This document shows, piece by piece, positions 22,674 through 28,365 of a stretch of 64,000 nt of DNA. A model generated the notes under the pieces. That model was not told the origin of the DNA and made no database searches. It saw nothing but the letters and a program-made list of their open reading frames with translations. A program made the position numbers and the translations under genes. How positions within the stretch are numbered: the first letter of the stretch is position 1; each line of letters opens with the position of its first letter. The stretch lies in assembly GCA_002763265.1 (NCBI GenBank), contig PEZQ01000010.1:1-64000 (forward strand), given 5' to 3'. Origin of the DNA: an archaeon CG10_big_fil_rev_8_21_14_0_10_43_11. Its GTDB lineage: Archaea > Nanobdellota > Nanobdellia > PEZQ01.

Positions 22674-22734
22674 GTTATTTAGTGTGGGTTTAACATAAAC
22701 TTTAAATAATAGTGTATGCATTACACTAAATAAC
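22674..22734 (+). promoter_or_regulatory. Palindromic operator candidate around pncB TATA box (probable NrtR site)
   Basis: TAGTGTA (22710-22716) and TACACTA (22722-22728) form a perfect 7-base inverted repeat with a TGCAT spacer, directly downstream of the TATA box CTTTAAATA (22700-22708). A second level exists: GTTATTTAGTGT (22674-22685) is a perfect 12-base inverted match to ACACTAAATAAC (22723-22734), so half-sites flank the TATA box. TACACTA also overlaps the nrtR start (25791-25797), and ACACTAAAGAAAC occurs before nadK (24904-24916). Binding here would block the basal factors. The regulator is inferred. Confidence 0.65.
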
Positions 22735-22766
22735 AAAGTGTGGAAAGTACAATAACGTGATATTTG

Positions 22767-24209
22767 ATGACAACAAATAATGATTGCTTACTTACTGACC
22801 ATTACCAGCTTACTATGAGCGCAGCGTATTACACAAAAAAACTCACAGACAAAAATGCAACATTTAGCTTGTTTGTGCGAAAACTTCCAGAAAACAGAAA
22901 TTTTCTTGTTGCAGCAGGACTCGAACAAGCGCTAGACTATCTTGAAAATCTGCATTTTGAAAAAGAACATATTGACTGGCTCTCAAAACGGCCTGAATTT
23001 GCTCACGCTGATAAAACATTTTTTACAGAATACCTGCCAAATTTTAAATTCTCTGGAGCAGTTCGTGCGGTTAGTGAAGGAACACCTATTTTCCCAAACG
23101 AACCGATTCTTGAAGTAACCGCACCTATTATTGAAGCACAACTTGTTGAATCAATGCTGCTCTCAACGTTTGCTGGCCAAACAATGGTTGCGTCAAAAGC
23201 AGCGCGCATTGTGCATGCCGCTCAAAAAAGGCCGGTGACAGATTTTGGCTTGCGTCGTGCACATGAACCCCATGCTGGACTATATGGTGCGCGTGCTGCA
23301 TATCTTGCGGGTTGTGCTGCAACGTCAAATGATCTTGCTGGTTTCTTGTGGGGTATTCCCGTTACGGGTACTATGGCACATTCATACATTCAAACCTATG
23401 GTGACGAAAAAAAAGCATTTGCTGATTATGCAGAAGTGTATCCTGATTTCATGGTTGCACTCATTGACACGTACAATCCAATTGCCGGAGCAATAAACGC
23501 GTCAGAACTAGGTGAGCTCCTTAAAGCGGTGCGTATTGATAGTGGCGACCTTGCAAAAAATGCACGAAATGTTCGAAGAGCTCTTGACAAACATGGTCTA
23601 AAAGACACAAAAATTGTTGCAAGTAGTGACTTAAATGAGTACAAGATTGAAGAGCTTGTGGCAAGCAAATACTCTCAGAACCGCGGGCCAATTGACCTGT
23701 TTGGTGTTGGCACTGAACTGATGGTATCAAAAGACGCGCCAAGCCTAGGTATTGTCTACAAGCTTGTTGAATTTGATAACAAACCGCGCATTAAGCTTAG
23801 CGAAGGCAAAGTCACGTACCCAGGAAGAAAACAAATTTATCGCATTTATGATGGACAAAACAGTCATGATATTCTCGCACTTGAAGATGAAGTACTTGAA
23901 GGAACGCCACTCTTGCATGACGTTATGACTGATGGCAAACGCATTGACACGCAAAAGTCAGTGCATAAAATTCGTGACTATTGTCTTAAACAACAAGAAA
24001 AACTTCCAAGCCATATTCTTTGCCTGAAAAAAACTGAACCCTACAAAGTGCGTGTCAGTCCGCAACTTGAGAAATTAACAAACAAACTTAGTCTAGACTA
24101 TCACGTGAGCGTGTTTAACCCAACTCGATTTAGAGGTATTACACACTATCCCTGCATTGGAGGTCGGTGGCGAACCCGCACACATTGGGATTCGCTCTAT
24201 GAGAGGTAA
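22767..24209 (+). CDS. pncB: Nicotinate phosphoribosyltransferase
   Basis: A 480-residue enzyme joining nicotinate to PRPP for NAD salvage. Recognised by TDHYQLTMSAAYY at the N-terminus (TDxYxLTM), the RRAHEPHAGLYGARAAYLAG region, GIPVTGTMAHS, IRIDSGDL-type VRIDSGDLAKNAR and GVGTELMVSKDAP with the usual order. A TTG at 22764 is in frame but ATG 22767 is preferred. The untranslated leader after the TATA box holds an inverted-repeat operator. pncA follows 7 bases after the stop, so the two are cotranscribed. Confidence 0.93.
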   Translation: MTTNNDCLLTDHYQLTMSAAYYTKKLTDKNATFSLFVRKLPENRNFLVAAGLEQALDYLENLHFEKEHIDWLSKRPEFAHADKTFFTEYLPNFKFSGAVRAVSEGTPIFPNEPILEVTAPIIEAQLVESMLLSTFAGQTMVASKAARIVHAAQKRPVTDFGLRRAHEPHAGLYGARAAYLAGCAATSNDLAGFLWGIPVTGTMAHSYIQTYGDEKKAFADYAEVYPDFMVALIDTYNPIAGAINASELGELLKAVRIDSGDLAKNARNVRRALDKHGLKDTKIVASSDLNEYKIEELVASKYSQNRGPIDLFGVGTELMVSKDAPSLGIVYKLVEFDNKPRIKLSEGKVTYPGRKQIYRIYDGQNSHDILALEDEVLEGTPLLHDVMTDGKRIDTQKSVHKIRDYCLKQQEKLPSHILCLKKTEPYKVRVSPQLEKLTNKLSLDYHVSVFNPTRFRGITHYPCIGGRWRTRTHWDSLYER

Positions 24210-24216
24210 CTTGACA

Positions 24217-24873
24217 ATGAGAATAGGATACATGGTTGACGTACAAAATGACTTTATGAAAACTGGCGGTGCACTCTACATTGAGGACGCCGAAAAACTG
24301 TTTGAAAACATTCAAACACTCAATAAATTATTTGAAGAAAAAGATATACCCGTCTGGGCAAGTGCTGATGCACATGACCCGCACTCAAAAGAACTTGCAC
24401 GAAATGGCGGCGTATGGCCAGACCACTGTATGAAAGGCGCGTATGGCAAGGAGTTGTGTGAAGAATCGGGATACATACCACAACTCACGCTCTCTCCGCT
24501 TGAATCTGATGCGGGATTGCACGTGAGCGGATATCGCGCAAAAGCAGGGTTTTTACACCATAACCTCCTGCTTGAAAAAGATGAAAATGACATTTTCTCC
24601 CATGCTCCATACAACTATCTTTTTGAGGCGCTTGGTTTAATACCACATCCCAATGAGCGTGAACCCGTACAAGCAATTGTATATGGTGTTGCAACAGATT
24701 ACTGCGTAAAAGATGCAGTGCTGGGCATGCGCAAGCGCGGCATTGAGGTATTGCTTGTCACTGACGCAATAAAAGAAGTCACGCCAGAAACTGGAAAAGA
24801 AGCCCTTGCGCTCATGTGTAAAGCAGGTGCAAGAGAAGTGACAACAAATCAGTTGTTGGACTTATTGAAATAA
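24217..24873 (+). CDS. pncA: Nicotinamidase / isochorismatase family hydrolase
   Basis: A 218-residue nicotinamidase that converts nicotinamide to nicotinate, the substrate of the preceding pncB product. It shows MVDVQNDFM (catalytic Asp), SADAHDPHS (metal ligands), the WPDHCMKG motif and VATDYCVKDAVLGM with the nucleophile Cys. The frame extends 20 codons into pncB, but GAGAGGT nine bases before ATG 24217 marks this start. An insertion around 100-135 replaces the usual K-G segment; a Lys is still nearby (LLEKDENDIF). Confidence 0.9.
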   Translation: MRIGYMVDVQNDFMKTGGALYIEDAEKLFENIQTLNKLFEEKDIPVWASADAHDPHSKELARNGGVWPDHCMKGAYGKELCEESGYIPQLTLSPLESDAGLHVSGYRAKAGFLHHNLLLEKDENDIFSHAPYNYLFEALGLIPHPNEREPVQAIVYGVATDYCVKDAVLGMRKRGIEVLLVTDAIKEVTPETGKEALALMCKAGAREVTTNQLLDLLK

Positions 24874-24962
24874 ACGCATGTGCACTACATAATAGGTATA
24901 TGCACACTAAAGAAACATTTGAATAGCAAAAAAACAAAAACAAGATGTAGGGAGCAGTAACA

Positions 24963-25787
24963 ATGCAAAATATAACACTCTTTGATTCAGTGTACATTGT
25001 TGACAATCAAGACAAACGCACAAATCCTGAGCACGAAAAAACCCGAGAAACCGTGCTTGCATGGCTTCGTGCTCACGCAAAAAAAGTCATGCAATTGCAA
25101 AACAAAGAACTTGGAACTGGCGTGTTTGATGATGCAACAATGGTCATCACTGTTGGTGGCGATGGTACGCTTCTTGGCGCAGCACATTACATCCAAAACA
25201 ATGCCGTTGTTCTTGGTATCAGATCAACAAGCACAAGCATTGGCCATGTATGCTCTGCAAACCTTGATACAATAGAAAGCTCGCTTAAAAAGTTAGAACA
25301 GGGTGAATTTGAAATCGCAGCACTCTCGCGCATCAATGCAATTATTACTGCAAATGGAAACACGTTCACGTGCTCGCATCCTGCGCTTAATGAAATATCT
25401 TTTGCAAACAAAAGCACGCCACGACGCATGGTTTACTATGAGCTTGAAACAAATGAGTTCAAAGAATTTCAAGCAGGAGACACACTTATTTTTAGCACGG
25501 GAACTGGTTCAACTGCGTACATTAAAGACTTGATTGAACGGGAAAAATATGATGCTTACAGCGGTGAGAGCGATACTTTGCTGTTTGGACTGTATGCGCG
25601 CTGCCTTGGAAAAAAACGCTTTGGCGAAATCAAAGATGGATTTGCAAAAGTTACCGTAAAAACTGATGAGGGAGCATACCTTGCAATTGACAGCCAAAAA
25701 ACATACTTCCTTCAAATAGGCGATTCGTTTACTCTTGCACCTGCACCAAAACTGAGGACACTACATTTTATAACTAATAATTGTTAA
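24963..25787 (+). CDS. nadK: NAD kinase
   Basis: A 274-residue ATP-NAD kinase making NADP. The diagnostic TVGGDGTLLGAA (about 60-71), HPALNEISFAN with the conserved NE pair, and FSTGTGSTAYIKD are all present. The DPANN-like sequence is divergent between motifs but has normal length. It has its own 90-base upstream gap with an ACACTAAAG half-site resembling the pncB operator, suggesting common regulation. Confidence 0.9.
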   Translation: MQNITLFDSVYIVDNQDKRTNPEHEKTRETVLAWLRAHAKKVMQLQNKELGTGVFDDATMVITVGGDGTLLGAAHYIQNNAVVLGIRSTSTSIGHVCSANLDTIESSLKKLEQGEFEIAALSRINAIITANGNTFTCSHPALNEISFANKSTPRRMVYYELETNEFKEFQAGDTLIFSTGTGSTAYIKDLIEREKYDAYSGESDTLLFGLYARCLGKKRFGEIKDGFAKVTVKTDEGAYLAIDSQKTYFLQIGDSFTLAPAPKLRTLHFITNNC

Positions 25788-25796
25788 TCATACACT

Positions 25797-26453
25797 ATGA
25801 GTAACCGGGAGACGCCATTGGTAACGACTGATATTATTCTGTTTACTATCCAGAATGATGACTTGAAAGTACTTCTTGTTAAACGTCGTTTTGAACCCTT
25901 CCAAGATGAATGGGCAATTCCCGGCGGATTTGTAAAAAAAGATGAAACCCTTGAGCAAACGGCGCTACGCGAACTCAAAGAAGAAACCAATGTTGATGAT
26001 GTTTACTTAGAACAGCTCTACACGTTTGGCAGTCCAAATCGAGACCCGCGCGGACGAGTAATTACCGTGTCATACTTTGCGCTTGCAAATTCAAAGAACA
26101 TGCATGTGCAAGCAAGTAGCGATGCAAAAGAAGTCAAGTGGTTTTCAATGTACCGCCTTCCAAAACTCGCGTTTGACCACAAAGAAATTCTTGAATACGC
26201 GCTCACACGTCTTAGATACAAACTTGAATACACGGCAGTCACCTTCAAACTTTTGTCTGAAAAATTTACTCTTACAGACTTGCAGCGCGTGTATGAAATT
26301 ATTTTGAATAAAGAACTTGACAAGCGCAATTTTAGAAAAAGCATTGCAAACCTTGTTAAAAAAACAAATGAAAAAACAGAAGGAGTCTCACACCGGCCAG
26401 CGTGGTTGTACGAATTCAAGTTTGAAGACGTGTCAATGGTTCACAAAAAATAA
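25797..26453 (+). CDS. nrtR: NrtR-type transcription regulator (Nudix domain plus winged helix)
   Basis: A 218-residue protein whose N-terminal ~135 residues form a Nudix domain with an intact box (GGFVKKDETLEQTALREL then KEETNV) and whose C-terminal ~80 residues (from KLEYTAVTFKLLSEKFTLTD through RPAWLYEF) form the winged helix typical of NrtR. NrtR proteins repress NAD synthesis genes and are released by ADP-ribose. Its place at the end of a pncB-pncA-nadK cluster fits that role. Start ATG 25797 overlaps a TACACTA half-site, suggesting autoregulation. An intact Nudix box means hydrolase activity is possible. Confidence 0.85.
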   Translation: MSNRETPLVTTDIILFTIQNDDLKVLLVKRRFEPFQDEWAIPGGFVKKDETLEQTALRELKEETNVDDVYLEQLYTFGSPNRDPRGRVITVSYFALANSKNMHVQASSDAKEVKWFSMYRLPKLAFDHKEILEYALTRLRYKLEYTAVTFKLLSEKFTLTDLQRVYEIILNKELDKRNFRKSIANLVKKTNEKTEGVSHRPAWLYEFKFEDVSMVHKK

Positions 26454-26454
26454 G

Positions 26455-28365
26455 TTATAGATTTTTTCGCGTTTCTTTTTTGTAACTTTCAACATTTGGC
26501 TGGTCAAACGCATTGACTCCAAGTAATTTTCCAAGATACATGACTTCAAGCATTTTAAACATCAAAAACGCGCCAATATTTTCTTCATCAATCACTTCAA
26601 GTTCAACACTCAAAAACGGCAAATCCTTTTTTTCAAAAGACGTCTCAGTTCCTGCAAGAATCGCGCCAAGCACCGTATGATATCGCTTTGTCTCTAATTC
26701 TTTTACCAGCCCAAAAAGCTTTGGCACGCGCACTCCGCGCGTCACGTATTTGACATTAACAAACGTGGTAATCTTGTCTTTTGGACCGCCAGCAAATAAT
26801 TGAAACATGGAATGATTATCAATTGAGCCAACGCTCACAATTGGCGTAAAACCCCTGCCTTGTTTTCCAAGGCTTTCACTTATAAGCTGGCGCCACCAAT
26901 CACCTACTGATTTGAGGTATCCTGAGAAAAGATAGATATTTGCAATCCTTTTTTTCCTATTATAATAATATGAATGAACAATTGCGCTTACTATCGCAGG
27001 ATTTGATTGCCACTCTTCATGCACACACAAATCTCTCATGGCACGCGCCCCTTCTAGAAGTTTGTCAATATCAATCTCAAGCATGAGTAATGGGAAAAGA
27101 CCTACTGGTGAGAACACAGAAAACCGTCCTCCCGCAGCAAGAGGTATTGCAAGTGTATGATACCCTTGTTTTTTTGCAACGCGCCATAATGGTGAATTTT
27201 TTGTTGTTGTAACAACCACTCGCGATGCGTAAGATGTGTCAAACTCTTTTACGAGTTCAACTACGGCTTGAAAATTTGCTATGGTCTCAGCAGTCAGGCC
27301 ACTTTTACTTATGGTATTAATTACTACTTTTTTTCCACGTTTAATGTTGCGTTTGAGAATTTGAAACACATCATGCGTGTACTCGGAATCAACGGTTTCG
27401 AGAAAAAATACTTTTGGCTTTTTTCTTGATTCATTGTAGAGCGCGCCATTCAATGCTTCATGTATTGCGCGTGTGCCAAGACTGCTACCACCAATACCTA
27501 CAATAACTAAATAATCTGGCGCGTCTTTTTTAAGATGTTGTGCTATGCGCTTGACGTCTGCTAACATTTTTTTGTTATCAATATAATTAAGGCGCGTCTC
27601 TGTTTTTGTCTCTAAATCACGTCTAAACGCTTGTACTGTTTTATGTAATTTTTTTTGACCAGATTCAAACACGCCTGAACTCACCATACTATTGCGATAT
27701 GAAAAACTAAAGCCCGGATACGTAATTTTTCCTTTTGCGTGTTCAATCACATCCTTGAGCGTTTCAATTGCTTTTTTCGTGTTTGTGTTATGCATTACAT
27801 ACGAGCCTGAAACAAAACTATCAGCTCCTGCAAAATATTCATTGACAATTGTGTAGGGTGTAATACCCCCGTCCACCTCAACAGGCACATCGGGATAATG
27901 CGTTTGCAAATAGTTTACTTTGTCAACTGTTTCTTGTAAGAACTCGCTGCCATACCTGCCGGGCTCAACACTCATTACAAGCACGCTCTCAACCGTGTCA
28001 AGCAAGGGTTCAATTGCGCTCACTGGCGTTTTTGGGTTGATAGCAACGCTCACGCACCGGTCAGCGTCCTGAATTTCTTTGATGAGCTTTTTTGGATTCT
28101 TTGTTGATTCAATATGAAAAATAATTGCATCAACTTTGTGCGCGTGCTTTTTAATCCATGCGTGAGGATTTGCAACCATGAGGTGGGCTTCATAGCTTCC
28201 CTTAAAATTGGGCAGAGAAAAATCAAAATCAAGTGATGTTTCTAGCACGAATGCACCATCCATCACATCGAGCTGAATAGCATCAACAAGGTGCATGACT
28301 TTTTTGAGTGCGCCATCAAGCTCTTTTTGGTTTTTTGCAATAATGCCTGGAACAATGCTTACCAT
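26455..28365 (-). CDS. rpe-pgi: Fused ribulose-phosphate 3-epimerase / glucose-6-phosphate isomerase
   Basis: One 636-residue frame with two enzymes. Residues 1-~212 are a ribulose-phosphate-epimerase TIM barrel (LDVMDGAFV 32-40, EAHLMVANPH 59-68, MSVEPGRYGSEF 131-142, VDGGI 164-168). Residues ~215-636 are phosphoglucose isomerase (IVGIGGSSLGTRAI 288-301, TISKSGLTAET, GGRFSVFSPVGLFP, DNHSMFQL, ending in QPNVESYK). The usual metal-binding His two residues before the first Asp (H-x-D) is Gln31, so epimerase activity may be altered. It overlaps rpiB by seven bases as the last gene of the operon. Confidence 0.9.
   Translation of the reverse strand: MVSIVPGIIAKNQKELDGALKKVMHLVDAIQLDVMDGAFVLETSLDFDFSLPNFKGSYEAHLMVANPHAWIKKHAHKVDAIIFHIESTKNPKKLIKEIQDADRCVSVAINPKTPVSAIEPLLDTVESVLVMSVEPGRYGSEFLQETVDKVNYLQTHYPDVPVEVDGGITPYTIVNEYFAGADSFVSGSYVMHNTNTKKAIETLKDVIEHAKGKITYPGFSFSYRNSMVSSGVFESGQKKLHKTVQAFRRDLETKTETRLNYIDNKKMLADVKRIAQHLKKDAPDYLVIVGIGGSSLGTRAIHEALNGALYNESRKKPKVFFLETVDSEYTHDVFQILKRNIKRGKKVVINTISKSGLTAETIANFQAVVELVKEFDTSYASRVVVTTTKNSPLWRVAKKQGYHTLAIPLAAGGRFSVFSPVGLFPLLMLEIDIDKLLEGARAMRDLCVHEEWQSNPAIVSAIVHSYYYNRKKRIANIYLFSGYLKSVGDWWRQLISESLGKQGRGFTPIVSVGSIDNHSMFQLFAGGPKDKITTFVNVKYVTRGVRVPKLFGLVKELETKRYHTVLGAILAGTETSFEKKDLPFLSVELEVIDEENIGAFLMFKMLEVMYLGKLLGVNAFDQPNVESYKKETRKNL

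Follow-up and report, generated by a model that had tools for sequence, protein, structure and literature searches.

What controls the supply of nicotinamide adenine dinucleotide (NAD) in an archaeon? Regulation of this kind appears to be little described in Archaea. Descriptions of the regulator NrtR have so far come from bacteria. Archaeal sequences of the NrtR family had been counted earlier (PMC6800001), and no archaeal NrtR regulon was found described in the literature that we searched. The question is raised by a stretch of 64,000 nucleotides from the archaeon CG10_big_fil_rev_8_21_14_0_10_43_11 (the window), in which two genes of NAD salvage (pncB and pncA), an NAD kinase gene (nadK) and a gene for an NrtR-like protein with a Nudix domain and a winged helix (nrtR) stand in a row, and in which a palindrome lies beside the TATA box of the pncB promoter. 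The original prediction, made from the letters of the window, held that NrtR governs the NAD genes through this palindrome. Our comparison of genomes bears this out, as in related archaea the motif stands before NAD genes and goes together with NrtR. Judged from the sequences, it is highly likely that an NrtR repressor-operator system controls NAD salvage and the formation of NAD phosphate (NADP) in this archaeon.

Results

Operator and regulator occur together across the phylum

The pncB promoter region is a 98-nt intergenic stretch between uppS and pncB. Its main predicted operator, TAGTGTA-TGCAT-TACACTA (TAGTGTATGCATTACACTA, 22710..22728; operator elements are given here without a strand), matches the pattern TAGTGTA-N5-TACACTA exactly, and the host genome of 1,006,051 bases has no other perfect match. 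This palindrome had been described as touching the TATA box. It is present as described and lies downstream of the box TTTAAATA (22701..22708, + strand, read directly from the sequence), but one base separates the two. By itself, the palindrome is only modestly unusual. Perfect palindromes of this 7-5-7 design occur six times in the 64 kb, and in shuffled versions of the intergenic region (first-order Markov, 98 nt) some perfect 7-5-7 palindrome arises with p=0.025. Given that such palindromes are not rare, the case must rest on comparison, and it is from there that the significance comes.

Among 371 genomes of the phylum that we searched for NrtR, roughly 50 encode full-length NrtR-like proteins. 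We then looked for the operator, allowing one mismatch at most, in the 46 best NrtR-bearing genomes and in 46 others that lack full-length NrtR. The operator was present in 33 of the 46 genomes with NrtR (57 sites, 14 of them perfect), distributed over many families, as against 3 of the 46 without, whose three sites include no perfect one and lie inside or across open reading frames (ORFs). A reversed-pattern control gave 14 matches in the first set and 6 in the second, and base composition is therefore not the explanation of the difference. Directly behind the sites stand pncB or other genes for nicotinate/nicotinamide phosphoribosyltransferases (NAMPT/NAPRT) at 21 promoters, archaeal nrtR at 5, nadA at 4, nadE at 3, nadK at 2 and pnuC at 1, a target set that spans de novo synthesis, salvage, uptake and the last steps. 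Linkage of NrtR to NAD genes recurs in many related archaeal loci, and one NrtR-like branch (L092-L097) has no sites nearby. The check proposed with the original prediction, a search for the motif before NAD genes of relatives, thus has a clear outcome: the motif recurs there and follows NrtR. On this comparison, control of NAD supply by NrtR is very probable throughout a class of archaea.

Several observations weigh against this reading. The co-occurrence of operator and NrtR has a Fisher p=7e-11, which overstates independence because the genomes are related. The scan with one mismatch or fewer found nothing in 13 of the 46 NrtR-bearing genomes; perhaps the operators are weaker there. The family and order of the window are represented by one other genome only, 83% complete and without NrtR, and operator conservation is shown at the level of the class and not among close relatives. 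Finally, canonical nadE was not found in the host genome (L158, L159, L162, L164), which is 99.6% complete; the matches to NadE models are GMP synthase and tRNA-thiolation or asparagine-synthase-like proteins. An archaeal nicotinamide mononucleotide (NMN) adenylyltransferase is present (L159), and without nadE, salvage would end at nicotinate adenine dinucleotide, unless nadE has been replaced or is missing from the assembly.

A matrix built from the operators of other genomes, with the window left out, places its three best sites of the 64 kb in the NAD-gene locus. The main operator ranks first (score 24.8). Second comes an element at the start of nrtR, AATTGTT-AATCA-TACACTA (25779..25797; score 15.3, 0.08 expected), and third a predicted tandem operator in the pncB promoter, AAGTGTG-GAAAG-TACAATA (22736..22754; score 11.3, 0.25 expected per 64 kb). 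The predicted operator at the nrtR start overlaps the first base of the start codon, and a near-identical element, AATTGTT-TATCA-TACACTA, precedes nrtR in L020; autoregulation is likely. TACACTA half-sites had been reported both here and before nadK. The former is exact (25791-25797), but the sequence before nadK (24903-24911) reads TGCACACTA, which departs from TACACTA and goes undetected by the matrix, and it was rejected as an operator. The second-best site in the host genome, C10:87476 (2 mismatches), was discarded as well, with no NAD gene nearby.

The NrtR protein and its predicted DNA-reading helix

The predicted repressor encoded by nrtR (25797..26453, + strand) has the architecture of the NrtR family, an N-terminal Nudix domain (PF00293, 4e-23) and an NrtR winged helix (PF21906, 2.4e-24), both matches being over cut-off. 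The NCBIfam equivalog NF050029 matches with 5.4e-55, under its cut-off (186.5 of 400 bits). For the Nudix domain, the next matches after NrtR are bifunctional NMN adenylyltransferase/ADP-ribose (adenosine diphosphate ribose) pyrophosphatases. An AlphaFold model of the protein (pLDDT 88.7) retrieved with Foldseek both 5bs6 (AraR, 1.1e-21) and 3gz6, the complex of Shewanella oneidensis NrtR (SoNrtR) with DNA (3.3e-19).

Residues 175-181 of the window NrtR, DKRNFRK, lie on the recognition helix in the predicted structure and are invariant in 26 of 26 aligned operator-type NrtRs. In the crystal of Bacteroides thetaiotaomicron AraR (BtAraR) with DNA, Asp178 to Lys184 touch GTGT in each half-site, with 7 bases between GTGT and ACAC (PMC4666351). 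DKRNFRK is identical to these contacting residues, and the archaeal operator is itself GTGT-N7-ACAC, these being its most conserved columns. Because helix residues and spacing are the same as in the BtAraR-DNA crystal, the operator fits the solved structure. Longer NrtRs of about 400 aa occur in one family (L057:2113-3327, L062:6285-7520, L063:1661-2869), and the one in L057 has two Nudix-type stretches ahead of the winged helix.

Putative ligand pocket and Nudix box

Residues of the pocket make ADP-ribose a plausible effector of the window NrtR. Arg30, Arg82, Arg85 and His128 are invariant among the aligned NrtRs, and Arg85 corresponds to Arg98 of SoNrtR, which contacts ADP-ribose, as does SoNrtR Asn43 (PMC4666351). 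A point against ADP-ribose is that the position of Asn43 is occupied by Phe32 in the window NrtR, and by Phe in AraR too. This replacement would suit a regulator that binds the operator but senses another ligand, such as NAD(H), NMN or another nucleotide. Ligands do vary in the family, NdnR answering to NAD and AraR to L-arabinose (PMC4666351), and of the solved structures AraR is the nearest in both sequence and fold. We consider another ligand possible but somewhat unlikely, given that the target genes are all NAD genes, that the Nudix domain has NMN adenylyltransferase/ADP-ribose pyrophosphatases as its next matches, and that the ADP-ribose-contacting Arg85 is invariant, whereas AraR has Gly89 in its place (PMC4666351). 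Nor is the sugar-type pocket of AraR (Gly89, Leu67, Phe36) matched, the window NrtR having Arg85, Glu63 and, at the third position only, Phe.

The Nudix box GX5EX7REUXEE is complete in the window NrtR and in most archaeal homologues. In characterised NAD repressors the motif is impaired (PMC4666351, PMC6800001); this is usual among them but not required, and the impaired signature is absent from the window NrtR. Since archaeal NrtRs mostly keep the catalytic glutamates, they might hydrolyse their inducer. Regulation does not depend on catalysis, because in an NrtR branch without these glutamates (L087-L091, with a degenerate Nudix box, GRFVRY...) operators still precede nadE and a gene for nicotinamide phosphoribosyltransferase.

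The intact Nudix box, together with the six perfect 7-5-7 palindromes of the window, might also be taken to mean that the protein works chiefly as an ADP-ribose pyrophosphatase and that its DNA-binding domain is vestigial, the palindrome being due to chance or serving another factor. This is extremely improbable in view of the co-occurrence of motif and NrtR across genomes, the recognition helix that matches BtAraR, the first ranks that a matrix from other genomes gives to the window sites, the presence of the same operator in bacterial nrtR loci, and the operators retained by the branch with a degenerate Nudix box.

Promoter architecture

Placement next to the TATA box is general and not peculiar to the window locus. 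Of 31 NrtR-target promoters, 29 have a TATA box that begins 5-14 bases before the operator, compared with 3.2% of control windows from the same promoters, and in nearly all promoters the operators follow the TATA box and cover the site where transcription is expected to start. This bears on the sign of regulation. Some bacterial-type archaeal regulators can activate, and in a few promoters (L147, L150, L152, L153) operators also occur upstream of the TATA box, as might be expected if NrtR were an activator or had mixed effects instead of being a simple repressor. However, nearly all operators are found on the downstream side, from which archaeal regulators repress (PMC2995911), and activation or a mixed effect is highly unlikely.

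Operators also tend to be paired. Within 150 bp of strong sites we counted 45 second operators, some pairs being counted from both sides, against 1.4 expected from block shuffles. Relative to the direction of the gene, most second operators are downstream, 22-26 or 43-54 bp away, and tandem sites at 22-26 bp are present in about ten loci besides the window. The tandem site of the window, a full-length site 26 bp downstream of the main operator, had been overlooked in the original prediction, which proposed a possible clamp of two dimers around the TATA box. Some points favour that model. Perfect 12-nt inverted arms do lie on either side of the box (22674-22685 / 22723-22734), and an arm of at least 12 nt has p=0.0015 in the shuffled intergenic region (first-order Markov, 98 nt). 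Most of the outer arm is contained in a weak upstream element on the far side of the box, TAGTGTG-GGTTT-AACATAA (22680..22698), which ranks 8 in the 64 kb, and in L147, L150, L152 and L153 true operators stand on either side of the TATA box. Nevertheless, a clamp is distinctly unlikely for the window. Most promoters have nothing upstream, second sites number 24 downstream versus 8 upstream, and the upstream element, whose position is not conserved, scores 4.0 as compared with 11.3 for the downstream tandem site and 24.8 for the main operator.

Bacterial counterparts

The closest named relatives of the window NrtR are bacterial, with 62-63% identity, and the best archaeal one is 69% identical. 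Evidence for bacterial operators comes from ten loci, three of which have the motif near nrtR. A perfect TAGTGTA-ATGAT-TACACTA lies upstream of nrtR in Thermosporothrix (Chloroflexota), whose NrtR is 62% identical to that of the window, and TAGTGTA-AAAAA-TACGCTA or a close variant is found just before two Cytophagales nrtR genes. In a tree, the bacterial NrtRs are placed within the archaeal ones, in a polytomy of low support that shows no direction of transfer. That regulator and operator are common to both domains suggests that the pair was transferred between Bacteria and Archaea.

The locus and neighbouring genes

The host is an archaeon, because its small-subunit ribosomal RNA best fits the archaeal model (1428.9 bits). 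The four genes are contiguous on the + strand (22767-26453), as originally described, and ORFs and profile matches agree. The first is pncB (22767..24209), an ORF for nicotinate phosphoribosyltransferase (NF006696, 3.7e-164; PF17767, 1.2e-32), followed by pncA (24217..24873) for a nicotinamidase of the isochorismatase family (PF00857, 3.4e-19; NF008623, 9.1e-17, under its cut-off). The NAD kinase encoded by nadK (24963..25787) is divergent, with PF01513 over cut-off (1.2e-6) and several NAD kinase models under theirs (best 5e-17). On the opposite strand, the ORF 26455-28365 (-, 636 aa) matches ribulose-phosphate 3-epimerase over its first part and, over the remainder, phosphoglucose isomerase, an apparent fusion of two sugar-phosphate enzymes.

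In other genomes, further genes accompany NrtR operators. MoaA-like radical SAM proteins recur in such operons (L052:5885-6718, L133:3621-4436), the gene in L133 lying directly before nadE and a nadM-Nudix fusion; they are possibly an unrecognised NAD-related enzyme. SPFH/Band_7 proteins are encoded behind operators at L053:8183-9049, in a row with nadK and nrtR, and at L141:861-1739. At L054:4990-5637 (215 aa) and L055:3586-4431 (281 aa), the first genes behind TATA-abutting operators are without any Pfam match.

Discussion

A known regulator family appears to be at work in archaea, with a well-conserved wiring to the archaeal promoter. Comparative computation supports the family, the operator, the target genes, the TATA-adjacent placement and the tandem sites; binding, repression, the ligand and the order of events are what we infer in the model that follows. 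An NrtR dimer would read GTGT-N7-ACAC within TAGTGTA-N5-TACACTA and occupy the main operator, which follows the TATA box directly and lies at the expected start of transcription. A second dimer would probably sit on the tandem site 26 bp further and strengthen repression. Bound NrtR may block completion of the pre-initiation complex, most likely by preventing the recruitment of RNA polymerase, as is to be expected because LrpA and MDR1 repress in this way from the same position. Turnover of NAD would yield ADP-ribose, or a close relative, which would bind in the Nudix pocket and bring the winged helices out of register with the DNA. Upon release, pncB-pncA would be transcribed, and probably nadK-nrtR too. 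Release by a ligand is presumed because the NrtR family behaves so.

The complete Nudix box invites a more tentative idea, which we think rather unlikely. NrtR could be a self-resetting switch, a repressor of NAD genes that ADP-ribose releases and that hydrolyses this same ADP-ribose, and would thereby report the rate of NAD breakdown and not its steady level, with paired operators letting two dimers lock the pre-initiation complex. If true, this chemistry would be the new part. The repressor-operator system predicted here gives, in concrete terms, an operator, a regulator and a list of targets for an archaeal class with genomes of about 1 Mb, and one regulator-operator pair common to Bacteria and Archaea would face two quite different promoter machineries.

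Among known systems, the NrtRs of S. oneidensis and Synechocystis, which are NAD-gene repressors released by ADP-ribose, share with the window protein the Nudix domain and winged helix, NAD-gene targets, the fold (3gz5/3gz6/3gz8) and the ADP-ribose-contacting arginines. In contrast to them, the window protein is archaeal, has TATA-adjacent operators and carries a Nudix box that is intact and not impaired; its recognition helix, DKRNFRK, differs from that of Shewanella NrtR. It is B. thetaiotaomicron AraR, closest in sequence and fold among solved structures, that has the same DNA-reading residues and GTGT-N7-ACAC, and its tandem sites are 3 or 42 bp apart (PMC4666351). However, AraR targets arabinose genes, responds to L-arabinose and has Gly89 where the window NrtR has Arg85 (PMC4666351). 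The NrtR of Mycobacterium smegmatis belongs to the same family and is a repressor of NAD genes and of itself, released by ADP-ribose, but its operator is GTTTTCGA-N7-TCGAAAAC, its Nudix domain is inactive and it controls de novo genes only (PMC6800001). NadQ, a proteobacterial NAD regulator, has a homologous C-terminal DNA-binding domain and NAD-gene targets, although its N-terminal domain is not Nudix and its operator is ttATRCTCannntGAGYATaa (PMC5343134). For the mode of action, the likeness is to archaeal regulators. LrpA of Pyrococcus furiosus represses from a site that adjoins the TATA box on its downstream side; it stops polymerase recruitment with TBP and TFB still bound, and MDR1 of Archaeoglobus fulgidus acts alike (PMC2995911). 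Both are unrelated to NrtR in protein family and ligand, yet the window operator, too, borders the downstream side of the TATA box.

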